A stretch of 64,000 nt of DNA from contig JAFGTP010000004.1 of NCBI GenBank assembly GCA_016934035.1, positions 1 through 64,000 on the forward strand, read 5' to 3'. Positions 611-22,322 of this stretch are shown here, piece by piece. Under the pieces are notes generated by a model, which saw only the letters and a program-made list of their open reading frames with translations, had not been told where the DNA came from and did not search any database. A program made the position numbers and the translations under genes. How positions within the stretch are numbered: the stretch's first letter is position 1; every line of letters starts with the position of its first letter. The DNA is from Fidelibacterota bacterium. Lineage in GTDB: Bacteria > Fidelibacterota > UBA2242 > JAFGTP01.

Positions 611-2836
611 ATGAGACCATTGAAAACACTGTGTATATTATTATTAATTACAATAAGCCTTTTTGCAAATAACACAAAAAAATTCACCAATATGAATCCT
701 GACCCAGATAGCGAACCCAGGTATCTGGATTATTATGTTCCTGATGAGAACCCGCCCATGATGAGTGATGAAAAAATTCAGGATGTCCTGGCCAAAGTTA
801 CAGCTCTGCCTTCTAAAATTGACTATTCCTTTTCAAGATATATGCGTCCGGTTTTCAACCAGGCTGGTGGTTCCTGCGGTTCCGCCTCCAGGATTTGCTA
901 CATGTTCGGTTATGAAATCAATAATTACCGGAATGTAACAGGCACCAGTTTAATAAACCAATATCCATCCCATTTTACATGGCTGCTTACCGGCCAAAAT
1001 TCCAGCAAAGAGGAAATGGCGATATTCAATGGTATTCCAAGTGCTTTTTACTATAATGGTAACACTTTTTCCACCAAATACGGCGGGCAGAATGTCGGCT
1101 GGCCCGATTTAACTGAAGCGCCAGACTACGGCTGGATGAATGGTTACAACCGCTGGGAAAATGCTTTAAACAATCGATTGGAAAAGAACGCTTTTATCAA
1201 TCTAACGACGCCGGAGAACCTGACAGTCCTCAAATCCTGGATGTATGACCATCATGGCGATACTGATTTCCAGGAAGGGGGTGTAGCCGGCGCCGGTGTC
1301 GCGACATCAGGTATGAATATTGTTTCTATTCCTGCCGGAATGGTTGAATCTGGCAAAAGCATTGTGAAGTCCTGGGGACCGCAGGTTGATCATGGCACGA
1401 CCTGGAGTGGCTATGATGACAGCGTGGCCTATGATTTCAATAATGACGGAAAAATTACCAATGATATTGACATAACCGGTGATGGTAAAGTGGATATGGC
1501 CGATTGGGAGCAGGGCGCCCTGATTATGCTGAATTCCTGGGGTGACAGTTGGGAAAACAATGGTACGGTTTATGTCCCCTATCGTCTCCTGAAAATCAAT
1601 AACATGGCAGCAGAATTCTATTACATTCGTAAAAATTACACACCTAAAAAAATCATGAAGATTAAAATGGATTACAATAAACGCTGCGATTTGAAATTAA
1701 GAATCGGCATATCAACGGATACCTTGGCCTCCTTACCCATGAAAACCATGGATTGCCATCATTTTAATTACGCAGGCAATGGAGAAGTGCCCATGCTGGG
1801 CAAATGGGCCGACGGTAAAATGCATGAAGAGCCCATGGAATTTTGTTTCGATCTCACAGACCTCATGGAAAATATGGATGTTTCACATCCCTATGATTTT
1901 TATCTCAAAGCCGCCACTAAACGATTCACGACGGGAATCGGTACCATATATTCAGTATCGGTAGTGGATTATGCAAAATCCCAAACCGGTGATGTGGTCT
2001 ATACAGCCCGGCATTCAAACCTCCCCATACAGGGCGGTGACATTAAATATATTTCCGTGCGCATGCCCGGCGAAACGATGGATATTCCTGAGAATGTTTT
2101 GATTGCCCAGTCAGCTATGACCGTTTATTTTGTGGACAGTGAAGAGACTACCGGCGAAGATGGGTCCGCTGTTAATGTTATCGATGGTGACCAAAGTACA
2201 ATTTGGCATACGGAGTGGTCCGATACCACCCCAACTCACCCACACGAAATCCAACTGCGTTTTGACCAAAGTTATTGGATCTCCGGATTTGAATACCTGC
2301 CGCGTCAAAATAGTGAAAATGGCAGAATCGGGCAATTTGAAATTTATCTATCTGTTGATGCCTCGGATTGGGGTGAGCCTGTGGCTACCGGAATCTGGCC
2401 CAATTCAACGGAAAGACAAACAGTGTTGTTTGAACCTGAAATGGGTAATCTTATTAAATTAGTCGCCCTTTCAGAAGTCAACGGCAACGAATGGACCTCC
2501 TGCGCTGAAATCAACATTTTACAAAAAAATCCAACAACGACATCTATGGAAAACCCTACCATCACCACAGTGTCAGAATTCAGACTGGACCAGAATTATC
2601 CCAATCCCTTTAATCCGGCAACCCATATTTCCTTTTATATATCCCGCAAAGCATCAGTAAAACTGGAAATTTATAATCTCCTGGGAAGAAAGATCACAAC
2701 CCTCACCAATAAGGTTTATTCTCCCGGAAAGCATACGATATCATGGAATGCTTCCGATTTGCCCAGTGGTATTTATTTTTATCAATTGACCGACCATAAG
2801 CAATCTATCACCCGAAAAATGGTCCTTCAAAAATAA
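611..2836 (+). CDS. Secreted papain-like (C1A) cysteine peptidase with discoidin domain and type IX-like sorting domain
   Basis: The 741-residue start at 611 is chosen because a purine-rich GGGAGGAGAGAGAG precedes the ATG and a signal peptide (MRPLKTLCILLLITISLFA) follows. An in-frame upstream ATG at 530 gives a poorer N-terminus. The papain triad is recognisable: Cys89 in GGSCGSAS, His261 in VDHGTTWSGYDD and Asn308 in LNSWGDSW. His and Asn are about 47 residues apart, against about 16 in papain. The insert holds two acidic calcium-loop-like segments (DFNNDGKITND and DITGDGKVDMAD). Residues ~500-640 form an F5/8-type C (discoidin) domain and the last ~80 a NYPNPFNP-type sorting domain ending in KMVLQK. 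The protein is probably exported and surface-attached, and degrades protein or glycoprotein. The fold assignment is firm; the substrate is unknown. Confidence 0.85.
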   Translation: MRPLKTLCILLLITISLFANNTKKFTNMNPDPDSEPRYLDYYVPDENPPMMSDEKIQDVLAKVTALPSKIDYSFSRYMRPVFNQAGGSCGSASRICYMFGYEINNYRNVTGTSLINQYPSHFTWLLTGQNSSKEEMAIFNGIPSAFYYNGNTFSTKYGGQNVGWPDLTEAPDYGWMNGYNRWENALNNRLEKNAFINLTTPENLTVLKSWMYDHHGDTDFQEGGVAGAGVATSGMNIVSIPAGMVESGKSIVKSWGPQVDHGTTWSGYDDSVAYDFNNDGKITNDIDITGDGKVDMADWEQGALIMLNSWGDSWENNGTVYVPYRLLKINNMAAEFYYIRKNYTPKKIMKIKMDYNKRCDLKLRIGISTDTLASLPMKTMDCHHFNYAGNGEVPMLGKWADGKMHEEPMEFCFDLTDLMENMDVSHPYDFYLKAATKRFTTGIGTIYSVSVVDYAKSQTGDVVYTARHSNLPIQGGDIKYISVRMPGETMDIPENVLIAQSAMTVYFVDSEETTGEDGSAVNVIDGDQSTIWHTEWSDTTPTHPHEIQLRFDQSYWISGFEYLPRQNSENGRIGQFEIYLSVDASDWGEPVATGIWPNSTERQTVLFEPEMGNLIKLVALSEVNGNEWTSCAEINILQKNPTTTSMENPTITTVSEFRLDQNYPNPFNPATHISFYISRKASVKLEIYNLLGRKITTLTNKVYSPGKHTISWNASDLPSGIYFYQLTDHKQSITRKMVLQK

Positions 2837-3279: not shown

Positions 3280-7119
<3,840 letters not shown>

Positions 7120-7130
7120 CTAATTTCTTT

Positions 7131-8351
7131 TCAGACATAAGCTTTGGGGTTCAAATGCTCCACTTCAAAAAGTTCACGAAATTCCAGCATTGCAGCCCCC
7201 ATGGCTCCGGCAATTGTTCCGAGGTCCGAAACCACAAATTTGATATTTTTATTAATCTGGGTCATGGAGTATTTCAATGCTGCCGCACGAATATTATTGA
7301 TGATAAAATCATTGACTGTAGCGATTTTCCCTCCAAAAATGATCATTTCCGGATTGAGTATATTGATAATCTGGGAGAGGCCAAATCCAAGATGGCCCGC
7401 AGCTTCTTCCAGGATTTCAATTGAGAAGGTGTCCCCTTTATTGGCCGATTCAAAGACCACTTTGGCATCGATTTTTTCAATATCATTCACTTCGTTGGTG
7501 ATGATGGTCTGGGCTCCGGCTTCGATTTTTTCCCGGGCAATGCGTGCCATGGCCTTTCCTGATGCATAGGTTTCCAGGCAACCCTGCTTGCCACAGTAGC
7601 AGAGATTGCCGTCTCTGACCACCTGCAGGTGGCCGAATTCACCGGCATAATAATCACTGCCATAAAAGATTTTACCATTGAGAATCATACCCAGTCCCAG
7701 GCCCCAACCAATATTGATGCAGAGAACATTTTGTTTACCCTTGGCCTGGCCAAACCACAATTCCCCTAATGCCATGGCTTTGGCGTCATGTTCTATGTTG
7801 ACTGATTTATTAAATTTTTTCTTAAGAAGTTCCTCCAGAGATTCATCACTGAAATTGAAATAGGTCTGGCTCAAGCCTTTGGGCCCCTGTATAATTCCCG
7901 GAATGGAAATTCCGATTCCCAGGACACTTTTATATTTTACAGCAGCATTTTTGATTACATCCTGAACTTCATCAAACAAGTCATCAATAACGGAGATGTC
8001 TTTGCTGTTCAGGTTAACAGATTCACGTCTGTCCTGGTGAATAATATTTTGGGCCAGATCCAGAACAACATAATCAGTTGTTGATCGTCCGATATCAATT
8101 CCAAGTACATAACCCGCCTGACCATTGAGCTGATAGATCAAGGGTGGCCGGCCGGCTCCCCTGTTTTCATCCTTGACGTCCACTTCCGTCACAAACTTTT
8201 CCTTTTCCAAACTGGATACGATGCTGGTCACCACCGGCAGGCTAATCCCGGTTTTATTTTTTAAATCGGTGAGAGAGAGCCTTTCCTCATCCAGTAATGC
8301 ACGAAGAATCAAATTTCTTCGAATAATATTCTTCTTTCTGACCTTACTCAT
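7131..8351 (-). CDS. ROK-family transcriptional regulator (NagC/XylR type)
   Basis: This 406-residue protein has an N-terminal winged helix (residues ~10-60, RALLDEERLSLTDLKNKTG...) followed by a ROK sugar-kinase fold. Visible ROK signatures are GIDIGRSTTDYV, the GIGISIPGI segment, HDAKAMALGE, and the zinc-binding CYCGKQGCLE. Family knowledge says such proteins repress sugar-utilisation genes and are released by a mono- or oligosaccharide. It sits inside the glycosidase operon, 65 nt before the GH2 gene and 49 nt after the DUF3472-protein gene, so it probably controls this operon. A GAGGAG motif lies just before the ATG with short spacing. The inducer cannot be read from sequence; a galactoside is the likely guess. 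Confidence 0.9.
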   Translation of the reverse strand: MSKVRKKNIIRRNLILRALLDEERLSLTDLKNKTGISLPVVTSIVSSLEKEKFVTEVDVKDENRGAGRPPLIYQLNGQAGYVLGIDIGRSTTDYVVLDLAQNIIHQDRRESVNLNSKDISVIDDLFDEVQDVIKNAAVKYKSVLGIGISIPGIIQGPKGLSQTYFNFSDESLEELLKKKFNKSVNIEHDAKAMALGELWFGQAKGKQNVLCINIGWGLGLGMILNGKIFYGSDYYAGEFGHLQVVRDGNLCYCGKQGCLETYASGKAMARIAREKIEAGAQTIITNEVNDIEKIDAKVVFESANKGDTFSIEILEEAAGHLGFGLSQIINILNPEMIIFGGKIATVNDFIINNIRAAALKYSMTQINKNIKFVVSDLGTIAGAMGAAMLEFRELFEVEHLNPKAYV

Positions 8352-8400
8352 AACTCCTCAAAGTACGGTATTTTTTTACATCAAATCCAAAATCGATTTA

Positions 8401-10377
8401 TTATTTGACCAAAACCATTTTTCGAATGGTAAGGTTGCTGCCGGATTTTAAAACAGCCAGATAGATACCGGATATACAATTTAACCCGTGCTGATTTTGG
8501 CCATTCCATATTGCCGTGTATGCTCCCGGATTTTGTAAACCATAATATAATTGTTTAATCTTTTTTCCCTTTAGATCGTAAACGGCCAGGTCTACTGGCG
8601 ATCTTTTTGTTAGGGAATATAATAAATTCGTGGAAGGATTAAAAGGATTTGGATAATTCTGTTCCAGATTACAACTGCAGGGAGCGTTTTCATCATCTTC
8701 CTTAAGGCCTGTGGCCTCTGAAATTTCCACAGCTTTCGAATTCCAGCAATTAACACCGAAGATGGTTTTTGTAATCAGCCTCAGATAATATTTATTTTCA
8801 CCGCTGAAATCCAAACCTGTTATCACATGTTTTCTATCCGAGTTTTTTTCCCACTGAACCGATTCATAATCATGGGGGTAAAGGTCACCGGTTTTATAAA
8901 CTAAATTATTAAAATTTGCATCGGAATAGATGCGAATATCAAAACATTCCTGGGCTGCCCATTCCGAAAGTTTGTAGTCCCATGTGATTTCGATCGTTGT
9001 ATCATTTACCATTGTATAATATATGTCCGTCAGGCCCGGATTTTTTGGGTCAAAATCGCCATCCGGTGTAATATACAACAGGGTGCCGCTCAGTGTTCTG
9101 TTTTCCGGAACAAAGTCGCCACCTGTAGCCAGCCATATTTTTTTATTTTCTCTGACTTCAGCCTGGGTATTGGGGTCGTGTCCGTCACCAGTGGCAGGAT
9201 TGTTTTCCTGATCATTGATCGAATAATAGGCTTTGGTGTAGGTGTACCATGAACCGGCCCTGTATTTTTTTCGGGCATTGTAAACATAACAGGAGCGGTG
9301 CCAAGCAGCTGTTGCAGCCCAATCTTCTACGAAAACATGGACTTCACCCAGGTCCGTTTCGGCTGTGTTGGTTGTCGGATCATCCGCCCGCCAAAGCGTG
9401 GCAATATGCATCCATTCCGTGAATTCCGGATCATATACCCAATAATCACGGGTAGCACCAGGGAAAGAATCAATTTCCACTGATCTCATCTTAACCAGCA
9501 ATCTGTAAGGCTGATTGTTTTTCCACTGGTAATTTTTCCAGGTTTTCACACCAGTCCCTTCACCTCCGAAGCCACTGCTGTTGACCCGGTAGCCTTTCCA
9601 TAGCACCTTTGCTTCGGCACCTTCAGGGACAGCAGAAACATCACCATCCACATAATCCCAAAGAGAAAAATGCAATGTACGATTGTTGCCCTGGTCCTGA
9701 ATGCCACAATAACCACCTGTAAAATTTATAGGCGCATAATATGTGTTGGGTGATGAGGAATCCACTTCAATATCAACCATCAGCACCTGTGCATCAAAAT
9801 CAGAATCATCGCGAAAGCCCAGGTGGAGTGAACTAGCCCAGCCGTCAATATCAACATTTGGATTAAAAGCATCATTAAGATTGATCTCTGCGGCAGTGGC
9901 CCAGGGATTTTCATTTACTTCAGAAAGTGCGATAAGTTTTACATATTGAGCAGAAATGGCTGCATCAAATCCTTCGATCTGCTTGGCAGTCTGATTGGGC
10001 CATTCCCCTTCTACAACGGGCTCGCCCCAGTTACTGGTATCATTGGTGACATATATTTGAAAATCCTTGATTCGGCCATTCCCCGAATTTTGGCGCGGCC
10101 AGTAGGAAAAATTTTCTATTGCATATTGTTTATCCAGTTTAAAAATGATTTCATGAGGATATTCCGGCTCAGATTGGGACCATTCTGTATGCCAAAAGGT
10201 TTCCGGATCGCCATCCAATACATTTACGGCCCTGCCATCTTCACCGGCAGTCTCCTCACTGTCAACATAAATGATTTCCATTGCACTTTGAGGAATATCT
10301 TCCATGGTAAAACCATAGGAAAATAAAAATAGTATAATAAATGCTATATAGAATTTTTGAATAGTGCGTTTTCTCAT
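8401..10377 (-). CDS. Secreted discoidin / DUF3472 protein with type IX-like sorting domain
   Basis: This 658-residue protein starts with a signal peptide (MRKRTIQKFYIAFIILFLFS). Residues ~30-165 are an F5/8 discoidin domain closely resembling the one in the peptidase at 611. Residues ~185-420 match the DUF3472 pattern (GGYCGIQ, FSLWD, GFGGEGTG, WMHIATLW, VEDW). An FN3-like segment (~440-560) leads to a NYPNPFNP sorting domain ending in RKMVLVK. No catalytic motif is recognised, so its role is unknown. Lying between a GH3 gene (16-nt gap) and the regulator, it is probably a surface carbohydrate-binding or accessory protein for the same glycan. The DUF3472 assignment rests on remembered motif patterns. 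Confidence 0.8.
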   Translation of the reverse strand: MRKRTIQKFYIAFIILFLFSYGFTMEDIPQSAMEIIYVDSEETAGEDGRAVNVLDGDPETFWHTEWSQSEPEYPHEIIFKLDKQYAIENFSYWPRQNSGNGRIKDFQIYVTNDTSNWGEPVVEGEWPNQTAKQIEGFDAAISAQYVKLIALSEVNENPWATAAEINLNDAFNPNVDIDGWASSLHLGFRDDSDFDAQVLMVDIEVDSSSPNTYYAPINFTGGYCGIQDQGNNRTLHFSLWDYVDGDVSAVPEGAEAKVLWKGYRVNSSGFGGEGTGVKTWKNYQWKNNQPYRLLVKMRSVEIDSFPGATRDYWVYDPEFTEWMHIATLWRADDPTTNTAETDLGEVHVFVEDWAATAAWHRSCYVYNARKKYRAGSWYTYTKAYYSINDQENNPATGDGHDPNTQAEVRENKKIWLATGGDFVPENRTLSGTLLYITPDGDFDPKNPGLTDIYYTMVNDTTIEITWDYKLSEWAAQECFDIRIYSDANFNNLVYKTGDLYPHDYESVQWEKNSDRKHVITGLDFSGENKYYLRLITKTIFGVNCWNSKAVEISEATGLKEDDENAPCSCNLEQNYPNPFNPSTNLLYSLTKRSPVDLAVYDLKGKKIKQLYYGLQNPGAYTAIWNGQNQHGLNCISGIYLAVLKSGSNLTIRKMVLVK

Positions 10378-10393
10378 TGTTTTTTTTCTTCCT

Positions 10394-12724
10394 CTAAATT
10401 ATTTCAAATGTTTGATTAATTTTGATATCTTCTGAACTGCTACCCACCATTATTTTAAACTTTCCAGGCTCAAGCAAATACTCTCCTTGTTTATTATAAT
10501 AACCGCAATCCTTTAGTTTTATTTTCAATGTTACCTGCTTTTTCTCACCTTTTTTGATCTCGATCTTTTTAAAAGCTTTGAGTTCTTTGACCGGTCGCGT
10601 AATGGAGCAAAACTCCTGTCGAATGTATAACTGTACAGTTTCCTTACCATCCATTTTACCGGTATTACTTACATCAACAGTCACAACCAACTCATCATCA
10701 TAAGATAACTTTGTACCACTAATAGCCATATTGCTGTATTCAAAATCTGTATAACTTAAGCCAAATCCAAAAGGCCATAACGCGTCGGGTGATGAAAAGA
10801 CATAATCCCGTCCTGGTACATCGTAACTTCCTCTGTTTCTGTAATATCCTTTATCTGTCGGTAAATGATTATAATAACATGGTAAATGCCCGACGCTTTT
10901 TGGAAATGATACCGGAAGTCTTCCCGATGGATTTACTTTTCCAACTAACAATTCTGCTATTGACAATCCTCCCTGCTCACCAGGATACCATGTTTCAACA
11001 ATAGCCGAAATATTTTCCTTGATCCAGGGCATTGAAAAGGGTTTTCCCTGAATGAGTACAACGATGGTCGGTTTTCCTGTTGCAGCCACTGCTTCAACTA
11101 ATTCCTGCTGCTTTCCAGTTGGGTCTAAGTCCGATAAATCAAAACCTTCGCCACTGGTACAGTTGGAATAATCTCTGGCCAGAGAGGCACTGGCTGTACC
11201 GATTGCGACAATTGCCGCATCACTTTTTTGTGCCGCTTTGACTGCCTCCTGAATTCCATCTTCACGAAGCGTAGCAATATCACATCCTTTTGCATAGTTT
11301 ATTTTCACTGTTTCCGGTAGCACTTGTTTGAGGCCGTCTAATAAAGTATAACCATCTTTATTATCCCTCGTCCAGGTATAATCACCAAACTGCACCTGAT
11401 CTGCATTCGGACCGACAACAGCAATTGAATTAAGTTTATTGACATCCAGAGGTAGTAGATTGTTCTCATTTTTGAGTAAAACAATACTTTCATCAGCCAT
11501 TTTTTTAGCCAGGTCAATATGTTTCTGAGTATGTATTTTAGAATAAATATTATCTTCATTTGCATAGGGATTTTCAAATAATCCTGTTTTGAATTTGGTG
11601 TATAATATTCTTGAAACTGCTTGATCAATTATTTTTACATCCACTTCACCAATTTTAACCAAACTATCCAGATGCTGATAGCAATGAGGTCCCGGTGCTT
11701 CCAGATCAACCCCCGCTTCCAGGGCTAATTTTCCTGCTTTTGGATAATCCTCTACAACTTTGTGAAAATAATGCAGCATCGCGACAGACCCCCAATCGGA
11801 ATAGACATATCCTTTGAATCCCAATTGGTTTCGTAGCAGATCAGTATAAATCGCTTTTGAACCGGTCAATGCTTCGCCATTATAGGCATTATACACACTC
11901 ATTACAGAGAGAATATTTGCTTTCTGAACGGCAGCCTTGAATGATGGCAGATGAATATTATAAAGATCATAAACGCCACCAACTGATGATGCCAGGTTGA
12001 GTCCGCCATGAGGTGCGCTATAGGCTAAAAAATGTTTTGCTGTGGCACATAGGCTTTGGTTTCCAGGATCATTTCCCTCTTGCAAACCTTTGATCATAGC
12101 AATTCCCATTGATGAAACCAGAAACGGGTCTTCACCATAAGTTTCTTCCACTCGTCCCCATCGCAAATCCCTTACCACATCCAGCACCGGGCTCAGAACC
12201 TGCGAAGCACCAACTGCTTTTACCTCTTTATGAATAGCGATACCGACTTCATTGATTAATTCAGGGTTCCAACTACTTGCCATTCCAATTGCCTGTGGAA
12301 ATATAGTAGCGCCATCCTGAACCAGTCCGTGAAGACTCTCACTGATAAATATTGCCGGAATTCCTAACCGGGTCTCTTCAACTAAATATTTCTGAATTTT
12401 ATTAACAGCCCTGGCAAACTCATTTACATTCAGTTGAAATCCATGGATGGTGCCAATTCCATTTTTATAATTTTTATCGATAAAATGGGCGCTTTCGACG
12501 TTATTGTCTTCTTTCATATCATCACAACCGGCTTCAGATAACTGTGCGATTTTTTCTTCCAGGGTCATTCTGTCGATTAAATCAATAATCCTGTTTTCAA
12601 TAGAAGCATTTGGATCTTTGTAGATTAATATTTCATGCTGTTCTTTGGAACACGATGAGAAAACACTCACAATAATAAGGACTATTGAAATGAAATGAAT
12701 TATATGTTTGTTGAAAAGTTTCAT
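10394..12724 (-). CDS. GH3 beta-glucosidase/beta-xylosidase-type lipoprotein
   Basis: This 776-residue glycoside hydrolase family 3 enzyme carries a lipoprotein signal (lipobox VFSSC, ~residues 21-25), which suggests anchoring in a membrane facing the periplasm. The N-terminal TIM barrel contains KHFLAYSAPHGG and the nucleophile Asp310 in the YVYSDWGS motif. The second alpha/beta sandwich is followed by an FN3-like C-terminal domain (~residues 660-776). The length matches BglX-type enzymes. It is 4 nt downstream of the GH27 gene and 16 nt upstream of the DUF3472-protein gene, within one operon. It probably hydrolyses beta-linked glucose or xylose from oligosaccharides released upstream. Subfamily specificity cannot be decided from sequence alone. 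Confidence 0.92.
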   Translation of the reverse strand: MKLFNKHIIHFISIVLIIVSVFSSCSKEQHEILIYKDPNASIENRIIDLIDRMTLEEKIAQLSEAGCDDMKEDNNVESAHFIDKNYKNGIGTIHGFQLNVNEFARAVNKIQKYLVEETRLGIPAIFISESLHGLVQDGATIFPQAIGMASSWNPELINEVGIAIHKEVKAVGASQVLSPVLDVVRDLRWGRVEETYGEDPFLVSSMGIAMIKGLQEGNDPGNQSLCATAKHFLAYSAPHGGLNLASSVGGVYDLYNIHLPSFKAAVQKANILSVMSVYNAYNGEALTGSKAIYTDLLRNQLGFKGYVYSDWGSVAMLHYFHKVVEDYPKAGKLALEAGVDLEAPGPHCYQHLDSLVKIGEVDVKIIDQAVSRILYTKFKTGLFENPYANEDNIYSKIHTQKHIDLAKKMADESIVLLKNENNLLPLDVNKLNSIAVVGPNADQVQFGDYTWTRDNKDGYTLLDGLKQVLPETVKINYAKGCDIATLREDGIQEAVKAAQKSDAAIVAIGTASASLARDYSNCTSGEGFDLSDLDPTGKQQELVEAVAATGKPTIVVLIQGKPFSMPWIKENISAIVETWYPGEQGGLSIAELLVGKVNPSGRLPVSFPKSVGHLPCYYNHLPTDKGYYRNRGSYDVPGRDYVFSSPDALWPFGFGLSYTDFEYSNMAISGTKLSYDDELVVTVDVSNTGKMDGKETVQLYIRQEFCSITRPVKELKAFKKIEIKKGEKKQVTLKIKLKDCGYYNKQGEYLLEPGKFKIMVGSSSEDIKINQTFEII

Positions 12725-12728
12725 CTGT

Positions 12729-13931
12729 TTAATTACTCAATTTTATTAACACGACTTCATGAGGTCTTACTTCACAGGAATAACTATCGAGGTTTTCGCC
12801 AACATTTTCATGTTTCCAAAGATCTCTGACAGTCATTTTTGACTCTAAACCAAGTTTTGAAAATTCCAATGACATTTTTAATGTTTCATTATCATTTCTA
12901 TTGAGAAACCCCACTGCCCAGGCACCCTTTTCCAGTTCTCTGGCCCAAATTTCGTGATCATTTTCCTTGAAAATTCTTTGTGCCTGTTTCCCAAGTTTGT
13001 CTTGATTGATAGCAATGACTTCTTTATTGGTCAGGATTGCAAGGCTTTTCTGGCTGATATTTCGAAGATCACAGGAAGTAATGAGAGGCGAATTCAGCAT
13101 AGACCACAAACTCATCTGGCTCTGATATTCCATATCTGTGCAACCATTGGCGCCATCATGAGATGAAGATTCGCCAGTTCCATAAAGTCCCACAACCAGC
13201 ATATCCATATCATTCCATTTTCCGGGCCCGGAATATTTCCACAGGTCAACATTTCTGTCCAGACAATTGATGATGCCGTTGTGCCCACCGTCGTATTTTC
13301 CATGGTCCCAAGTGTCCCGAATATCCCAGGTAGTCCGCCATAATTGCCCCCCGGCGTCAGCAGCCCATTCCCAGGGTTTTCTGGGGCCCCATTCACAAAT
13401 GGCGAAGACCATTGGCCGGCCGGTTTGTTTCAGTGCATCCGCCATTTTTTTATAACGAACAAAAGCCGAATCGCGGTGTTCCGGGGCGCCACAGTAATCA
13501 TATTTCAGATAATCCATGCCCCACTCGGCAAAGGTCCGGGCGTCCATTTCTTCGTACCTGATACTTCCCACAGCGCCGGCACAGGTATATTCAGCTGCAT
13601 CAGAATAAATTCCCAGTTTCAGGCCTTTGCTATGAACATAATCCGCCAGGTCTTTCATGCCTTTTGGAAATTTTTCCGGATCAGGGTGCAGGACACCATT
13701 TTCATCCCTTTGTCCCTGCCAGAGGTCATCAATAATAATATATTCATATCCGGCTTCTTTCATACCCTTGGCGACCATTGCATCAGCCATTTCACGGATC
13801 AGTTGACCATTGATATTGCCGCCGAACATATTCCAGTTCATCCAGCCCATGGGCGGAGTCTGGGCTAGTTGTCCGTTTTCACAAGAAAAGAACACGAAAA
13901 AAACCAATATAAGAGCAATGATTTTTTTCAT
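12729..13931 (-). CDS. GH27 alpha-galactosidase, lipoprotein
   Basis: The 400-residue start at 13931 is chosen because AGGAGATAAA precedes the ATG and a lipoprotein signal (MKKIIALILVFFVFFSC) follows. The open frame extends further upstream but overlaps the previous gene. GH27 signatures are GWMNWNMFGG, IIDDLWQ, the nucleophile Asp145 in YLKYDYCG and the acid/base Asp203 in RTTWDIRDTW, which aligns with the human alpha-galactosidase A site. GKWNDMDMLVVG is also typical. The start codon lies 1 nt after the stop of the upstream GH36-like gene and its ribosome binding site lies inside that gene, so the two are probably translationally coupled. It removes terminal alpha-galactosyl residues; a related alpha-N-acetylgalactosaminidase activity cannot be excluded. 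Confidence 0.92.
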   Translation of the reverse strand: MKKIIALILVFFVFFSCENGQLAQTPPMGWMNWNMFGGNINGQLIREMADAMVAKGMKEAGYEYIIIDDLWQGQRDENGVLHPDPEKFPKGMKDLADYVHSKGLKLGIYSDAAEYTCAGAVGSIRYEEMDARTFAEWGMDYLKYDYCGAPEHRDSAFVRYKKMADALKQTGRPMVFAICEWGPRKPWEWAADAGGQLWRTTWDIRDTWDHGKYDGGHNGIINCLDRNVDLWKYSGPGKWNDMDMLVVGLYGTGESSSHDGANGCTDMEYQSQMSLWSMLNSPLITSCDLRNISQKSLAILTNKEVIAINQDKLGKQAQRIFKENDHEIWARELEKGAWAVGFLNRNDNETLKMSLEFSKLGLESKMTVRDLWKHENVGENLDSYSCEVRPHEVVLIKLSN

Positions 13932-13932
13932 T

Positions 13933-16647
13933 TTATCTCCTGATAATTCGGGCATCGCCCCAGTCAGCATGGTCACCATTGATGTTGTCACCGCCATCTG
14001 TTGTGATCAATTTTAATTTTTGAGCATTTGTAATGTCAAGTTTCACATCCACAGTACCGTCTTCTCGTCTTAAAATTCCCGATTCAAAAGCCGGTTTTTC
14101 AGTATATCCATGACCCATATCCAGAAATATTTGAAAAGTGATGGATCCGTTGGTTTCTTTATCCTGTCCCACAAAGGCTAAAAATTCACAGGCATTAAAT
14201 CTTGACAGGTCATATTCTATCTCAGAATTAGCATGAGTTCCCAGGCCTTTTTCATAGACTTTTCCACCAATGGTTAGCGGATTACCATCAACTGATTTAT
14301 TCCTGTTCAGGTTTCCCCAGTCCTGTTTTGTGGCAAGAGGTTCCATATCACTGAGGTAGAATACTTTTTGATCCGGGTCAATATCGGTCTCAAAGGTCAC
14401 AATGGCCGCACTTTCAAAACCAGCACCCACAATATTTATTTTTCCGGAATAAGCAGTTGAGAACTCCAGCCCTTTTGTATTGACAAGATAGGTATCTTTT
14501 AAAAATTTCTTTTTTGTTAGCCACTTGTCAGAAATTTCTATTTCAAATTCATTATCGCCCATGACAGATAATTGAAAATTGATTTTTTCTCCGACTTTGA
14601 CAATTCCCAGATCGGTTTCAGCCCTTTTGGGCAAAACTGTTTTTTGGATTGTGTCAGTAGGGGAAATTTTTACAACTTTCACCTCCCAGGGATTCAGGGT
14701 CACAGGAACAGACTGCCCGTACTGGTAAGTTCCCAGTTGTTTTTCTGCCACTTTGCTAAAACCACTAACTTTGATCACTTCGGCCCTGTAAATTTGTCCT
14801 TTGAATTCCGGCATTCTGGATGATTCCCCCAGCGGAATGTCAATACCACGGACATGACCGGTTGGATTGCGTAAAATGACCAGGCCTTCTTTGTCTTTGA
14901 AATGGGACCAGAAGTAGGGTTTTCCTTCACTGGGTGCACCGCTCATGGCCGGCTGGGTAGTGAGGATTTCCCAATTTGCATCCGACCATTTGATCACATC
15001 AGCCAGTGCGTCCCAATAGTCATCATTCATACCGGTGACGTAGATTTCACTCCACATCACACCACGGGCATAATAGAGAATCGCATTGTCAATATGTTCC
15101 TGTAATGTCGCATAGAGGCCATCATCCTGGCAACTGGAAATAATCCCATGGGTCATGTAACTGGTTTGAGGAATGAACCATTTCATGCAATGTTGATAGT
15201 GGTATTCGTCCCTTCCACTCATCCGTTGCTGGGCTTCGGTTGGTTCATCATTACCGGTGTAGGTTTTGATATCACCGCCGAAAGATTCCCATAAAATATC
15301 ATTGGTTTTCAACCACCAGGGATTATGATTGATTTCAGTCGTAAGATAATAAAATAGTTCAGGTTGAATCTCTCTGGCGGATTCGATAATGTCAATGACG
15401 CCATCCACCGTTGCTTCGATACCATAGAAATTATTAGCCAGATGGCCATGCCCCTCTTTATCACAACCGATATAAGCAAAATCCGATTTGATACTGGTAC
15501 AGCCCAGGTCCATCAATTCCAGTATTCTGGATTTTTTATCTTCAAAAATTTTACTGCCTTGCTTGAGGCAAAGGCTCCAGTTTGATCCGGTATTATAGCC
15601 CCCGGATTCATACCATTCTGTTTCCTTGCCACGCTCGGCCAGACCATATTGTCCGGTTAACGGCATCCATAAATGAAGATTGCTGTCATATTTTTTGATG
15701 GCTTTTTGCAGTGGGCTGTCAGGCCCGATACCACCCGGCAAAAATTCATGATTAACTTCCCACATGGTATTGCGGTCCTGCCAGCCATCATCCACCACAA
15801 ATCCGTCCAGGATAATCCCCCGGTCATAAAGTGGTTTTACATGGGTTTCAATGGCCTTCAGCAGGCTTTCTTCTTTCTGGTCAAACACAAGCAGAAACCA
15901 GGTATTATAAACCTTAAAATTTCGAACTTTTGTGCCGCGATATTCATCGATATATTTGAAAAAGGTATCCTTTAAACGATTTAAAGGAGTGTTGGGGCTG
16001 GCACCGATCACAGCAGTTTTACTGATGCAGGATTCCCCTTTTGCCAGGTCCTGACCCGGAAAATGCCTGAGTCTCAAATATTTCCCATCCATCGAATTAT
16101 CCTGTTTCGGATATTCCAGGCCAAAGAAAAAATTGTCCACATAGACCGGACCATCAGCCGGTGTATTGCCTTTAAAGACATGGGATGGATAGGATATGTC
16201 CGCTCCGTTTATGATCATTCGCTCCACTTCAATGGTGGAGATGTTTCGTTTCAAAGTATGAGAAGTGAATTCTATTTTTTTTCTAATGTAAAATTCTTTT
16301 GTTGCATCGTAGGTGATCCTGGCTTCGATTTCGTAATCGGCATTTTTCAGCAATACTTCCAGAACAGTGCCTGTCCAGAGGGGTTCACCGACAACAATAA
16401 AGTCCCTTGCGGTCAGTGTTTTTCCGGTGAAATCCGCTTTATAATCATCAATCATCACTTTGAATTCATCAGAAACGATCTGATACCCTTCACCGGAATA
16501 TTTATTTTCCAGAAAAGTAGTTGATAGGTGATCATCAACCGAAAGGATACGCTTTACACCTCTGTTTTCCAGAATATAATCTTTGGCATTTAAGGTAAGC
16601 GTGAAAATAAGAATCAGAAATAAAAGTTTTTGGATTTTGTACAACAA
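13933..16647 (-). CDS. GH36-like (clan GH-D) glycosidase with C-terminal NPCBM domain
   Basis: This 904-residue exported enzyme has a TTG start preceded by CGGAGAAT, and no alternative ATG nearby fits. A signal peptide covers residues ~1-21. A beta-sandwich N-terminus leads to a TIM barrel with FVVDDGWQDR, LHLWMPLTGQYGL and TSIKSDFAYIG, the last resembling the nucleophile strand of GH36/GH27 alpha-galactosidases. The final ~150 residues form an NPCBM carbohydrate-binding domain (GLGTHANSEIEYDL ... TTDGGDN). It is the first gene of the six-gene operon and is directly coupled to the GH27 gene. Likely alpha-galactosidase or a related alpha-glycosidase; the exact family number is less certain than the clan. 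Confidence 0.8.
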   Translation of the reverse strand: MLYKIQKLLFLILIFTLTLNAKDYILENRGVKRILSVDDHLSTTFLENKYSGEGYQIVSDEFKVMIDDYKADFTGKTLTARDFIVVGEPLWTGTVLEVLLKNADYEIEARITYDATKEFYIRKKIEFTSHTLKRNISTIEVERMIINGADISYPSHVFKGNTPADGPVYVDNFFFGLEYPKQDNSMDGKYLRLRHFPGQDLAKGESCISKTAVIGASPNTPLNRLKDTFFKYIDEYRGTKVRNFKVYNTWFLLVFDQKEESLLKAIETHVKPLYDRGIILDGFVVDDGWQDRNTMWEVNHEFLPGGIGPDSPLQKAIKKYDSNLHLWMPLTGQYGLAERGKETEWYESGGYNTGSNWSLCLKQGSKIFEDKKSRILELMDLGCTSIKSDFAYIGCDKEGHGHLANNFYGIEATVDGVIDIIESAREIQPELFYYLTTEINHNPWWLKTNDILWESFGGDIKTYTGNDEPTEAQQRMSGRDEYHYQHCMKWFIPQTSYMTHGIISSCQDDGLYATLQEHIDNAILYYARGVMWSEIYVTGMNDDYWDALADVIKWSDANWEILTTQPAMSGAPSEGKPYFWSHFKDKEGLVILRNPTGHVRGIDIPLGESSRMPEFKGQIYRAEVIKVSGFSKVAEKQLGTYQYGQSVPVTLNPWEVKVVKISPTDTIQKTVLPKRAETDLGIVKVGEKINFQLSVMGDNEFEIEISDKWLTKKKFLKDTYLVNTKGLEFSTAYSGKINIVGAGFESAAIVTFETDIDPDQKVFYLSDMEPLATKQDWGNLNRNKSVDGNPLTIGGKVYEKGLGTHANSEIEYDLSRFNACEFLAFVGQDKETNGSITFQIFLDMGHGYTEKPAFESGILRREDGTVDVKLDITNAQKLKLITTDGGDNINGDHADWGDARIIRR

Positions 16648-16877: not shown

Positions 16878-19280
16878 TTATTTAACCAGCATCATCTTTT
16901 TAACGGCTTCATGCTTGCCTGCTGTGAGTTTATAAAAATATACACCACTGGCCAGTTTGGAGCCATCAAAAGTCATTCGATGGGCACCTGCCACCATTTC
17001 CTGGTTGGCGATGAGTTTTTCTACCAGTTCACCCCGCAGGTTGTAGACAAACAAACTGACTTTATCATGCCGCGGAATATAGTAATTGATAACAGTTGTA
17101 GGGTTAAAAGGATTTGGATAGTTCTGTTTTAATTCAAATTTTTCTGCAACAATTTCTTCCTCAATGGCTGTTGGGGCCTGAGTGGTATCAATATAGATCA
17201 CAGAAGCTGCACCTTTGATACCAGCATCATTGGTACCGCAAATACCCAGCCATCTGACGCCTTCCGGAGGTGTAATGGTAAAACTACCACCGGTTACACC
17301 CGTCATAACTTCTTCAAAAGGTACTATGGCTGCATCGTCAAAGAAGACTTCGCCTTTGCAGGGGAAATTGACCGGATAGTTGCTGCCAACACCGACCTGA
17401 AAATAATGTCCCCATCCTTTCCAGAAGACATCATTGGGTGTAAAGGGATAAGCCTGTTCTTCCCAGCCATCGCTGGTGCCATAACCTCTGTCATATCCCA
17501 GAGCAAAGATTTTTTCATAATGGAAAGTATCCCAGTAATATCTTGGGAAAATATAGACACCGGTAATATTCAGGGAATCTTCCGGAGTCGGATCGTTATT
17601 GAAGACATTTTCATTGTCATCGGGAAGGACTTTATGAGTTCTATCCAGACCGATTTCAATGTTACTGTAATTGGCCATTACTCTATAAAGGTAAATGTTT
17701 GTTACATCCGGGAGTACACCGCCGCCGGGATAATATTGTCCCCAGGCTGCACAGACACCTTTGGGCTGATTGTCCGGATCTTCAGGGCCGATATAAACAC
17801 ATCCGGAACCGTCTATTCCCATTCCCTGGTCGGGAGTCAACCATGCCATGTAGGGATGATCAAAAGCATCAGGCTGTGCTTCAGACCGTTCATAAGCTCT
17901 CCAACTGGCCAGCTGACCGGTACTGTCGGCTTCTTCAAAGTGAGGATTGCCAATAATATTCTGATCGTCTGTCCATATCAAAGGTTCCTGAAGGACTGTA
18001 TAAGTGACGCCTTCTTCTGCATCAAAATTTATCGTATATTCACCGGATTCATTTTTTACAATACTGTAATCATTATTTATCATGCTGGGGGTTTTACCCA
18101 AGGGCTGACAATTCACATTATCAATCCAGACCGTCATCAGTGAATCGGCATGGCCCTTGCCAACACCGTGTAATTCAATTCTGAAAATATTGGGCAGACT
18201 TTGATAATCGGTTGGATAGATAATGGTATCTTTCAATGTAATCCAGCCGTTGGTGCTTCCTGTCTCATCCAGTCTTTCATCAGTATTTTCCAGCAAAGTG
18301 GATTCAATGTGGTACCATCCTTCGACAAACTGGATTTCATGATTATAGAAATGTTCGGCTTTGATATCCATGGAAACCTCATAGATATATCCCAGTAAGA
18401 ACGGAAAATCCGTACACCAGGCATACCAGTCGTCAGAACCGGTCGTATCATCTTCAAACTGCTGAATTTTGACACATTTCGTGCCATTGACGCCTTCACC
18501 ATCAACATAGGCATAATTGGTACTGTCTTCAGCATCATTGGCATAGCCAATCAGGCCAAGGGCGGTGTACCAGCCTTTAGGGGCAAAATCATTGTCCAGG
18601 GCTGCTTCTTCAAAATTTCCATTGACAATGTCTTCGATGGGTTCTTTGGTTTGCTCGATCGTTATATCATCGATCCAGACTTTTCCGGAACCTTTCATTC
18701 CAAATCCAATGTAAAAGCTGGCATCCATCCAGTTGAAAATATATTCTTTCTTTTCCCAACCGTCACTGAGCCCTGTCCATTCATCCTGTTCATATCCGTC
18801 ATACAGTGAGAACCCCCACCAGGCATTACCTTCGGTGATTTCATATTTTGTCCAGAAAGTCACTTTGTATTCGGCACCTAATTCCATATTTTCAGGAATG
18901 ATATCCATTTCCATACCGCCATGGAACCAGATTTCTTCAAAATTATTGGCCATAAACAATGACCGTGTACCTTCATGGGCGTCGTCACTTACAACTGACA
19001 TATTGTTGTAAATGGTTGCGCTGCCATCAGGATGGTCAGCTCTGAAAATTGTATCACCTTCAGAAGTGATAAAAGTATCCGGAGCCATATCGCTCCAAAG
19101 TGCATTTCCAATCCAATTAAAATCTTCGCCTTCAACGGGAATTGTGTTTACGTCCGTTGAATCAGTTTCAAAACCATATTGAAAAGGTACATCGCCAACA
19201 TCTTTGACATCGGCGAAGGAAACCGTAAAGCATACTACCAGTACCAATAATAGGCTTGCAATTCGTAACAAATTTTTCAT
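16878..19280 (-). CDS. Large secreted CBM-like protein with type IX-like sorting domain
   Basis: The start at 19280 (800 residues) is preferred because AAGGAGGAAAAAACG precedes it and a signal peptide (MKNLLRIASLLLVLVVCFTVSFA) follows. The protein appears to contain at least three jelly-roll modules of the CBM4/9-like type, each opening with a GNFEE- or GNPHFEE-like segment and containing aromatic-rich strands. The C-terminal ~85 residues are a NYPNPFNP sorting domain ending in KKMMLVK. No catalytic residues are recognised. It is probably a surface glycan-binding protein exported with the PorV-like system encoded 135 nt upstream. It is rich in acidic residues and tryptophan. Exact CBM family is not assignable by eye. 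Confidence 0.75.
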   Translation of the reverse strand: MKNLLRIASLLLVLVVCFTVSFADVKDVGDVPFQYGFETDSTDVNTIPVEGEDFNWIGNALWSDMAPDTFITSEGDTIFRADHPDGSATIYNNMSVVSDDAHEGTRSLFMANNFEEIWFHGGMEMDIIPENMELGAEYKVTFWTKYEITEGNAWWGFSLYDGYEQDEWTGLSDGWEKKEYIFNWMDASFYIGFGMKGSGKVWIDDITIEQTKEPIEDIVNGNFEEAALDNDFAPKGWYTALGLIGYANDAEDSTNYAYVDGEGVNGTKCVKIQQFEDDTTGSDDWYAWCTDFPFLLGYIYEVSMDIKAEHFYNHEIQFVEGWYHIESTLLENTDERLDETGSTNGWITLKDTIIYPTDYQSLPNIFRIELHGVGKGHADSLMTVWIDNVNCQPLGKTPSMINNDYSIVKNESGEYTINFDAEEGVTYTVLQEPLIWTDDQNIIGNPHFEEADSTGQLASWRAYERSEAQPDAFDHPYMAWLTPDQGMGIDGSGCVYIGPEDPDNQPKGVCAAWGQYYPGGGVLPDVTNIYLYRVMANYSNIEIGLDRTHKVLPDDNENVFNNDPTPEDSLNITGVYIFPRYYWDTFHYEKIFALGYDRGYGTSDGWEEQAYPFTPNDVFWKGWGHYFQVGVGSNYPVNFPCKGEVFFDDAAIVPFEEVMTGVTGGSFTITPPEGVRWLGICGTNDAGIKGAASVIYIDTTQAPTAIEEEIVAEKFELKQNYPNPFNPTTVINYYIPRHDKVSLFVYNLRGELVEKLIANQEMVAGAHRMTFDGSKLASGVYFYKLTAGKHEAVKKMMLVK

Positions 19281-19415
19281 CGTTTTTTCCTCCTTAAAGT
19301 TGTTTAACACACATTTTTTTTATTCGAAAACATAGCACATTCAATTTTCTGAGATCATCCCAGCGAGCCATTGGACTAGATTTATCCATTGACCCAGTCA
19401 AAGCATTCGGAAAAT

Positions 19416-20394: not shown

Positions 20395-22314
20395 TCACTT
20401 AACAATTACAAATTTTCCAACTTGCTTAAAATTTTGATCACTGCCTTTCCCCTGCACAACAAAATAATAGATCCCGCTACCCACAGTATGGTTGTTTTTG
20501 TTCAGCAGGTTCCAACTGGCGATATTATGCCCTTTTTCGTCACGATCATGGTTGAGTTCATTCACCAGGATTCCATTAATGGTAAAAATCTGAATATCAC
20601 ATTTTGCCGGCAGGTTCATGAAAGCAATTCGTCTGTCAATCTCATACCAGTCATCTCTCAAATCCTGGGTTGGATATTCCCAGGCCGGACTGTGTGAATA
20701 ATCCATGTCCGCCCGGTAAGGATTCGGTACTACATAAACCTCGTCATTGCCGGAATCTTCAGGACTCGGCCCTGGGACAGTGCTCTTCACCAAAAAGGAT
20801 TTCGGTGATTCGAGTGGGCCGATTCCTGAAGAATCATCACGAAGATCTATAGAGGTCACTGTGTACCAATATCTGATACCGTTCTTCAGTCCGGTATCGG
20901 TATAGTCAAATTCAAGTCCGGTATCATAGCCGCTGCCATTAATACTGTCAAATTGGGCAATCAATGTCCAGGGGCCATATTCGCTCTCTTCACTGCGATA
21001 GACTTTAAATCCATCGAAATCTCGGGTGATACCGTCAATACGGGAATTATCCACCGTTTCCACAGGATCATAGCCTTCGTAATCCTCTTTCCAGCGCCAA
21101 TCGATTTTGATACCGTGGGATACCGGCCCCAGTTCAAATTTTGGCGGATTGGGCGCTTTAGGCACCTGGAAATCAGCACTGTAAAGGGAACGGGCGGCCT
21201 TGATATTTTCACGGAGATCAATAATACCATTACCACCGGCAATGGCACAGGTAATACGAATCGTATCACCGGGGGCCAGGGTAGCATAAGGCCCTTTGGC
21301 GATCAGTCCGCGCATACTTCCCGTAATCTGGTCACTGTAAGTACGGTCAATTTCATTCTTTGACATTTCTGTATAAAATTCGCTGTTAATATGAGGATCT
21401 TTGGGGCCTCCCTCCCAGCTCCAAAATCTTGTATTCAAACCCTCAATTGTCACACTGCCGCCGGGAAGTGCAATGCCCAGGACTTCAAAGCCGACCAGTT
21501 CATTATTGGGAAAGTCATCACTGCCTGTGCCGGGATGATCACCCTGGACCATGAATTTTCCATCTTCATCCCAATAGGAAATATCGTCACCCAGTGTAAT
21601 ACCTTTTGAAAAATCACCACTGTGGGGATCAGAATAAATGCCCAGATAAAGTTGTTCCCAATCAAATTCATTTTCATTGATAATAAAATAATCGATAAAA
21701 ATAATATCATTGTACCATTCATTGTCCCAGGCAAAAGAGCGCTGAATTACATGGGCATCCATCGGTTCGTGCAGTTTAAAAATTTCCGGTGCTTCCGGTG
21801 TGGAAAAGGTCACGACATTGTCATAAAACTGACAGATCAGGTCCTCCTGGGAAATGGGAAAGTAGTTATCTGAAAGAGTACCATCTTCATTGAAAAAATC
21901 CACCACAGCATTGGGATTGATATCCGGGTTCTGCTTTTCAAAAATGCTGGTACTGTACATGATATGTTTCGGGTTATATTGGGGTGCAAATTCAAAATAA
22001 TCTCCGCCCGGAGTTTTGGTGTCATTATAGGCGCCGGAAACACTACACAGAGTGTCACCGTTAACAATGGCGCCAATCCAAATGCCATGATAAGCCAGGA
22101 AGGTATTATTACTGGACTTTGGAAAAATCAGAGCATGCGACATACCGCTCTGGCCAAAATAGGCTGCAGCACTGTTTCCGACATTTCCCACGGCCAATTT
22201 TACATTATTGATCTCGTGATAGCGAAAATCGACGTTTGCCGGCGGATAAACTTCCTGGCCGGAAAGGAGGATTATGAATGAAAGAATGGTTAAGGTTGTT
22301 CTGATAAATTTCAT
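20395..22314 (-). CDS. FN3/sorting-domain secreted protein, tandem paralogue 1
   Basis: The ATG at 22314 gives 639 residues with a signal peptide (MKFIRTTLTILSFIILLSG). A longer TTG frame from 22341 overlaps the previous gene and is unlikely. The protein opens with YPPANVDFRYHEINNVKLAVGN, has a large beta-rich, aromatic and aspartate-rich N-terminal region (to ~400), then an FN3-like domain (~410-520; YWYTVTSIDLRDDSSG). The C-terminal region has a VPNPYRAD motif and ends in KFVIVK, resembling a type IX-like sorting domain variant. It is strongly similar along its whole length to the next gene upstream. No enzyme motif is seen. Likely a surface protein working with the TonB receptor of the same operon; function unknown. 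Confidence 0.75.
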   Translation of the reverse strand: MKFIRTTLTILSFIILLSGQEVYPPANVDFRYHEINNVKLAVGNVGNSAAAYFGQSGMSHALIFPKSSNNTFLAYHGIWIGAIVNGDTLCSVSGAYNDTKTPGGDYFEFAPQYNPKHIMYSTSIFEKQNPDINPNAVVDFFNEDGTLSDNYFPISQEDLICQFYDNVVTFSTPEAPEIFKLHEPMDAHVIQRSFAWDNEWYNDIIFIDYFIINENEFDWEQLYLGIYSDPHSGDFSKGITLGDDISYWDEDGKFMVQGDHPGTGSDDFPNNELVGFEVLGIALPGGSVTIEGLNTRFWSWEGGPKDPHINSEFYTEMSKNEIDRTYSDQITGSMRGLIAKGPYATLAPGDTIRITCAIAGGNGIIDLRENIKAARSLYSADFQVPKAPNPPKFELGPVSHGIKIDWRWKEDYEGYDPVETVDNSRIDGITRDFDGFKVYRSEESEYGPWTLIAQFDSINGSGYDTGLEFDYTDTGLKNGIRYWYTVTSIDLRDDSSGIGPLESPKSFLVKSTVPGPSPEDSGNDEVYVVPNPYRADMDYSHSPAWEYPTQDLRDDWYEIDRRIAFMNLPAKCDIQIFTINGILVNELNHDRDEKGHNIASWNLLNKNNHTVGSGIYYFVVQGKGSDQNFKQVGKFVIVK

Positions 22315-22322
22315 ATTATTGG

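Follow-up and report, generated by a model that had tools for sequence, protein, structure and literature searches.

A putative type IX-secreted papain-like peptidase with an apparently nested pair of predicted calcium loops at its His/Asn hairpin turn

Introduction

The window, by which we mean the whole 64,000-nucleotide stretch analyzed here (positions 1 to 64,000 of contig JAFGTP010000004.1, Fidelibacterota bacterium assembly GCA_016934035.1), encodes near its start a putative peptidase with an unusual segment between the catalytic His and Asn. A preliminary description of the locus placed these residues at His261 and Asn308, 47 residues apart, and translation from the ATG at 611 confirmed the spacing, the coordinates, and the residues. 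The description also reported two calcium-loop motifs in the intervening segment, called them dockerin-like, and suggested that they lie beside the active cleft. What this segment is, where it sits in the papain fold, and what calcium might do there are the questions that we address here.

Architecture and genomic setting of the peptidase

The main features of the gene and its product, outside the insert, are as follows.

611 to 2836, plus strand: coding sequence of 741 aa for a putative secreted papain-like peptidase with an F5/8 type C (CBM32-type) domain and a type IX secretion sorting tail
611, plus strand: ATG start codon, with the purine-rich AGGGAGGAGAGAGAG just 5' of it
611 to 667, plus strand: likely signal peptide, residues 1 to 19, as read from the sequence
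806 to 1645, plus strand: papain-like peptidase domain, residues ~66 to 345, from the family alignment and a weak PF00112 match
860 to 862, plus strand: Gln84, presumed oxyanion-hole Gln (Gln in 107 of 110 aligned relatives)
875 to 877, plus strand: Cys89, presumed nucleophile (Cys in 111 of 111 aligned relatives)
1391 to 1393, plus strand: His261, catalytic His, at the start of the hairpin (His in 111 of 111 aligned relatives)
1532 to 1534, plus strand: Asn308, third catalytic residue (Asn in 99 of 111 aligned relatives; otherwise D, Q, E, or G)
1640 to 2095, plus strand: family-specific domain of unassigned fold, residues 344 to 495, common to the family
2150 to 2512, plus strand: F5/8 type C domain, residues 514 to 634, resembling modules of sialidase and galactose oxidase (Pfam)
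2597 to 2830, plus strand: type IX secretion C-terminal sorting domain, residues 663 to 740 (Pfam, NCBIfam)

Gln84, Cys89, His261, and Asn308 are all present in the window protein and follow the papain order, with the Gln ahead of the Cys. Against a papain-like assignment, the protein does not reach the PF00112 cut-off of 20.7 bits, scoring 12.4 bits at full length and 15.2 bits for the domain alone; three of six family members match PF00112 at E values of up to 1. One relative that carries the same insert, L007, exceeds the cut-off with 23.8 bits, and because 80 of its residues are aligned to profile positions 149 to 202, the insert is treated there as an insertion. The C terminus is a type A sorting domain, with 50.6 bits against TIGR04183 (cut-off 23) and 47.7 bits against PF18962 (cut-off 27). 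Together, the best explanation is that the window protein is a putative papain-like (C1-type) peptidase exported by the type IX system, and its sorting tail makes a location at the cell surface likely. For the domain at residues 344 to 495, searches with six family members gave no match in Pfam, and none in the PDB better than E 0.23; on these results, a Cwp84-like lectin domain was rejected as an identity for this region.

The peptidase gene is convergent with a run of genes for sugar-cleaving enzymes on the opposite strand (3283 to 13997, minus strand), which comprises a GH2 beta-galactosidase, a ROK protein, a DUF3472 protein, a GH3 enzyme, and an alpha-galactosidase; the GH2 and DUF3472 proteins each carry an F5/8 type C domain. 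The F5/8 type C domains of the peptidase (2096 to 2530, plus strand) and the GH2 beta-galactosidase (3283 to 3852, minus strand) are 41% identical (54/131). The domain in the DUF3472 protein (8404 to 10377) is the third of its kind here. A role of the peptidase in glycoprotein breakdown is a reasonable guess. Also in the window are two long open frames on the minus strand, at 16881 to 19310 (810 aa) and 20398 to 22341 (648 aa), that had no Pfam match at E 1e-10.

Distribution of the family

Our initial searches yielded two relatives: L003, from the same phylum, and L004, from a Porphyromonadaceae assembly whose genome holds three further copies. A six-member profile then matched 89 of 393 genomes sampled from the order of that assembly (E ≤ 1e-10), many of them with multiple copies. 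Of 244 genomes from the phylum of the window, 8 matched at E 1e-5; the strong matches (E < 1e-100) were confined to the window's genome and one other (G039), and the remaining six were distant (E 1e-5 to 1e-8). When a three-row profile was used on the wider phylum of L004, to which genome G245 belongs, G245 alone matched (1 of 395 genomes); since the samples and first looks behind 1/395 (three-row profile) and 89/393 (six-row profile, order) differ, these counts do not translate into a phylum frequency. Horizontal transfer of the window peptidase gene is possible. The nearest kin by sequence, L195 and L196, come from the order of a Porphyromonadaceae assembly, and the window's own phylum yielded one other strong match.

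A plasmid search and, on viral contigs, searches with profiles A1 and A4 and with a DNA pattern for the loop found no relative of the window peptidase. Profile A3 detected one distant C1 peptidase on a viral contig, L069, along with its kin L221 to L228. L069 and L221 to L225 are papain-like with a plain turn that has neither an insert nor a calcium loop, and the His-Asn gap in L069 is 18.

In total, we aligned 192 rows, set aside 16 that were partial, and retained 176 full rows, of which 157 were nonredundant; these relatives are drawn mostly from one order. The counts given above for Cys, His, Asn, and Gln come from an earlier alignment of 111 members with the insert, in which one row (L124) had a gap of 48 that became 47 after realignment. 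Across the 157 nonredundant relatives, all of which have both residues in the alignment, the gap between His and Asn is 47 in 149, 33 in four, and 39, 40, 48, and 51 in one each.

Two calcium-loop motifs between His261 and Asn308

Both motifs lie within positions 1433 to 1504 of the window, and the first, DFNNDGKITND, begins at 1433. We describe the insert by the following features.

1433 to 1462, plus strand: predicted calcium loop 1, residues 275 to 284 (DFNNDGKITN), with D275, N277, D279, and T283 as predicted ligands
1463 to 1504, plus strand: 14-residue segment 285 to 298, which contains loop 2 and is missing from single-loop relatives
1469 to 1504, plus strand: predicted calcium loop 2, residues 287 to 298, DITGDGKVDMAD from 1469
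1508 to 1510, plus strand: Glu300, invariant, the proposed closing ligand of loop 1, aligned to EF position 12 of single-loop relatives

Shuffling the N-terminal 350 residues 200,000 times gave two Dx[NDST]x[DN]G motifs no more than 20 residues apart in 137 cases, and the combined double-loop pattern had a single match, this protein, among the 314 open frames of at least 60 aa in the window. Conservation is a stronger control than shuffling. In all 149 relatives with a gap of 47, D275, N277, D279, D287, D291, and E300 are invariant. Substitutions at the other predicted ligand positions are limited: residue 283 is Thr in 147 and Ser in 2; residue 289 is Asn in 136, Thr in 10, Ser in 2, and Asp in 1; residue 295 is Asp in 105, Asn in 32, and Thr in 12; and residue 298 is Asp in 148 and Glu in 1. 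Every predicted ligand position thus carries an oxygen side chain in 149 of 149, and positions 278, 281, 293, and 297 are variable. Gly302, in the motif E300-x-G302, is Gly in 147 of 149. The double loop is a fixed hallmark of the family and not an oddity of one protein, because the gap is exactly 47 in 149 of 157 relatives and the ligands are kept in 149 of 149.

When we compared a profile of the insert with the PDB, the best 60 of 78 matching chains were mostly EF-hand proteins, with some dockerins. Each match covered a single loop, and among those 60 no best stretch spanned both complete loops. With the ligand invariance in 149 of 149 relatives, these matches to single EF-hand and dockerin loops bear out the earlier report of two calcium-loop motifs. 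By these patterns both loops probably bind calcium; the pairing of ligands with ions that we describe below is likewise inferred.

Dockerins consist of two loop-helix repeats of about 22 to 24 residues each, with the loop pattern D-x-[ND]-x-D-G-x-[ILV]-[DN]-x-x-D. Loop 2 resembles the 12-residue loop of dockerin type I (PF00404) and fits this pattern save for Thr at position 3, which corresponds to residue 289, so the dockerin likeness proposed earlier stands for this loop as a motif. It does not extend to the unit: the loops start at residues 275 and 287, only 12 apart, which leaves no room for a helix; there are no loop-helix repeats; loop 1 has no residue 12 of its own (residue 286, its linear position 12, is acidic in just 4 of 149); and the PF00404 score is 10.3 against a cut-off of 22.9. 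An EF loop with an acidic residue 12 occurs in linear form in the four relatives with a gap of 33, and in window loop 2 by way of Asp298, whereas loop 1 of the window has such a residue only when the 14-residue insert is skipped and Glu300 is taken as position 12.

Relation of the two loops to each other

In each of the four relatives with a gap of 33, a single canonical 12-residue loop of EF type is present (DLNEDGTIQEDE in two of them, DLNGDGAIQEDE, and DLNNNGHIDQDE). These loops end in a Glu followed by x-G-A, which aligns to the invariant E300-x-G302. The difference between the two gaps, 47 minus 33, is 14 residues and corresponds to segment 285 to 298, including all of loop 2. Two further relatives, L200 and L206, lack loop 2 but retain loop 1 and the W-E-I-G-A end. 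Given the aligned Glu of the single-loop relatives, the 14-residue difference, and the pattern in L200 and L206, the most economical interpretation is that loop 1 is closed by E300 on the far side of an inserted loop 2, and the lobe would then be a calcium loop nested in a calcium loop rather than two dockerin repeats.

Two observations sit less easily with this reading. A single relative, L139, has a disrupted loop 1 yet retains E300 and loop 2, so E300 may act for loop 2 as well. D287 is also invariant (149 of 149), lies directly after loop 1, and might be a ligand common to both ions. These same observations favor an arrangement in tandem, in which D287 would close loop 1 and open loop 2 in a thrombospondin-type binuclear centre, with Glu300 belonging to site 2 or having a structural role; binuclear Dx[DN]xDG centres are on record (PMC3123361). 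Because the Glu stays in register in single-loop and loop-1-only relatives, where there is no second loop, we consider such a tandem arrangement unlikely, if still the most serious competitor to nesting.

History of the loops

Outside the hairpin, the window protein is 48% identical (119/250) to the single-loop relative L195, 36% identical to L003, and 33% identical to L004. The four single-loop rows represent about three lineages, because L195 and L196 are 96% identical and the gene of L215 is split. The peptidase domain of this last relative is spread over two frames with a stop between them (L215 and L209, in G983), reflecting either a pseudogene or an assembly error.

We built a tree from 69 rows, excluding the hairpin, omitting L215, and using loop-free C1 peptidases as the outgroup. 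Single-loop L199 branches outside all others (98/93), a deep placement that depends on the long outgroup branch. The window protein groups with single-loop L195 and L196 (100/99), among double-loop rows. Placing the loop labels on this tree calls for four changes, and a quick 70-row tree gave the same count. This topology fits a history in which the turn went from no loop to a single loop to a double loop, with a later reversal to a single loop in the window's sisters.

Position of the insert in the papain fold

In PF00112 loci of the same phylum, the gap between His and Asn is 18 (21 loci), 24 (5 loci), or 25 (2 loci); our gap pattern found both residues in 28 of 30 loci, and the other two had no pattern match. 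Since ordinary C1 peptidases of this phylum have gaps of 18 to 25, the insert takes the place of the turn in the His/Asn hairpin. A viral-contig row illustrates the exchange: it reads G-Y-D-D-S-K-K followed by C-F-L-I-Q-N-S-W-G, and the window protein reads G-Y-D-D-S-V-A-Y, then the insert, then W-E-Q-G-A-L-I-M-L-N-S-W-G. An EF-hand is a helix-loop-helix unit; by alignment to the papain fold, the flanks of the loops here are strands. The papain core carries the His on strand 2 and the polar residue on strand 3 of a single antiparallel sheet (PMC10318531), which puts the turn at the end of these strands away from the catalytic residues. H261 is 14 residues from D275, and E300 is 8 residues from N308; from strand geometry, our estimate of the distance along the strands between the lobe and the catalytic residues is about 25 Å or more. 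AlphaFold2 models from 2-row and 7-row alignments had mean pLDDT values of 28 and 30, with no residue at or above 50, and we drew no geometry from either.

The alignment thus does not support the earlier suggestion that the loops lie beside the active cleft. A calcium switch at that site, in which calcium would open or shape the substrate groove and gate activity, has a parallel in the CHAP domain of LysK, in which a structural calcium ion lies ~10 Å from a zinc on the catalytic Cys and its ligands are needed for activity (PMC4126393). That ion, however, is held in a loop before the Cys helix, and the window insert is at the His/Asn hairpin turn, 8 to 14 residues along the strands from the catalytic residues, which makes a switch of this kind improbable here. 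Least probable of all is a docking or substrate-recognition lobe, in which a calcium-rigidified loop would bind a surface partner protein or glycan as dockerins bind cohesins: loop 2 is dockerin-like (a weak match) and the sorting tail makes a surface location likely, but conservation is found mainly at ligand and packing positions, residues 278, 281, 293, and 297 vary, and the loops are too close for a dockerin helix to lie between them.

Predicted role of calcium

The reading that we favor, with a probability of roughly 0.6, is that a nested two-calcium lobe at the His/Asn hairpin turn has a structural role in a type IX-secreted papain-like peptidase. The turn between the His strand and the Asn strand would be replaced by a calcium-binding lobe. 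Its loop 1 would be of EF type, with D275, N277, D279, the main chain of residue 281, and T283 as ligands and Glu300 as the closing acid, and a second complete 12-residue loop (D287 to D298) would sit between positions 10 and 11 of loop 1. Two calcium ions would then pin the tip of the hairpin and keep the strands of His261 and Asn308 in register, probably helping the enzyme to fold and remain stable once it has left the calcium-poor cytoplasm.

Because the lobe is at the far end of the hairpin, calcium probably works not at the cleft but by stabilizing the catalytic hairpin once the enzyme has been secreted. The lobe is more likely to steady the enzyme than to gate its active site, and its role at the cell surface may be to support folding and stability. 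An indirect, structural calcium-dependence of activity is plausible; such dependence, if any, would act through the fold and not through a metal at the cleft. In the unrelated peptidase PepX, EDTA left activity unchanged, yet a calcium-loop double mutant was inactive (PMC10536834), so calcium tests of this kind can disagree. A further idea, that the second loop was inserted whole into the older one and that the two-ion clamp leaves the peptidase unfolded in the cytoplasm, to be switched on only after export, we offer tentatively and would ourselves sooner doubt than adopt.

Comparison with known systems

Relative to peptidase C1 (PF00112, including cathepsin K and Cwp84), the window protein shares the order of Cys, His, Asn, and Gln and the N-S-W-G after the hairpin, but it has 29 extra residues over the common gap of 18. 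Calcium in Cwp84 is bound in a separate lectin-like domain (PMC4089489). The CHAP domains of LysK and LysGH15 combine a papain-like fold with an EF-hand-like calcium loop, as the window protein appears to do; their loop is before the catalytic Cys and near the active site, whereas the window loops are between His and Asn, at the turn (PMC4126393). Tk-subtilisin also has a calcium-loop insert of ~25 residues in its peptidase domain, in this case an insert with four calcium ions that is needed for folding; it differs from the window protein in its fold, its four ions, and the irregular form of its insert (PMC3123361). A cellulosomal module of Ruminococcus described as papain-like was considered as a precedent and rejected: it is an NlpC/P60 domain, and the word calcium is absent from the text available for PMC3573020.

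There is also a close likeness to strand-loop-strand Dx[DN]xDG loops. Loops of this kind can link two strands, and CD2 gained a calcium site when one was grafted between its strands (PMC3123361); the window insert agrees with them in linear motif, in its place between strands, and in the short, motif-less loops of relatives. The main text of that source contains no occurrence of papain and none of nested. Our literature search on papain-like peptidases with calcium or EF-hand inserts, on type IX C1 peptidases, and on nested loops covered titles and the starts of abstracts, with few subscription journals, and within that range returned no paper on this family. As far as this literature goes, the motif and its strand context are known, and the fixed double loop at the His/Asn turn of a papain-like peptidase is new.

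Significance for the family

At its cut-off, PF00112 misses the window protein, and the family described here may help in annotation. These papain-like peptidases are numerous; in them a predicted calcium lobe bridges the strands that bear two catalytic residues, and relatives without the inner loop exist. They offer a testable case of metal loops growing by insertion into existing loops, and of whether calcium ties a cysteine peptidase to an extracellular site. If the nested reading is true, the window protein and the 48%-identical single-loop L195 would be a natural pair for gauging what the inner loop contributes.
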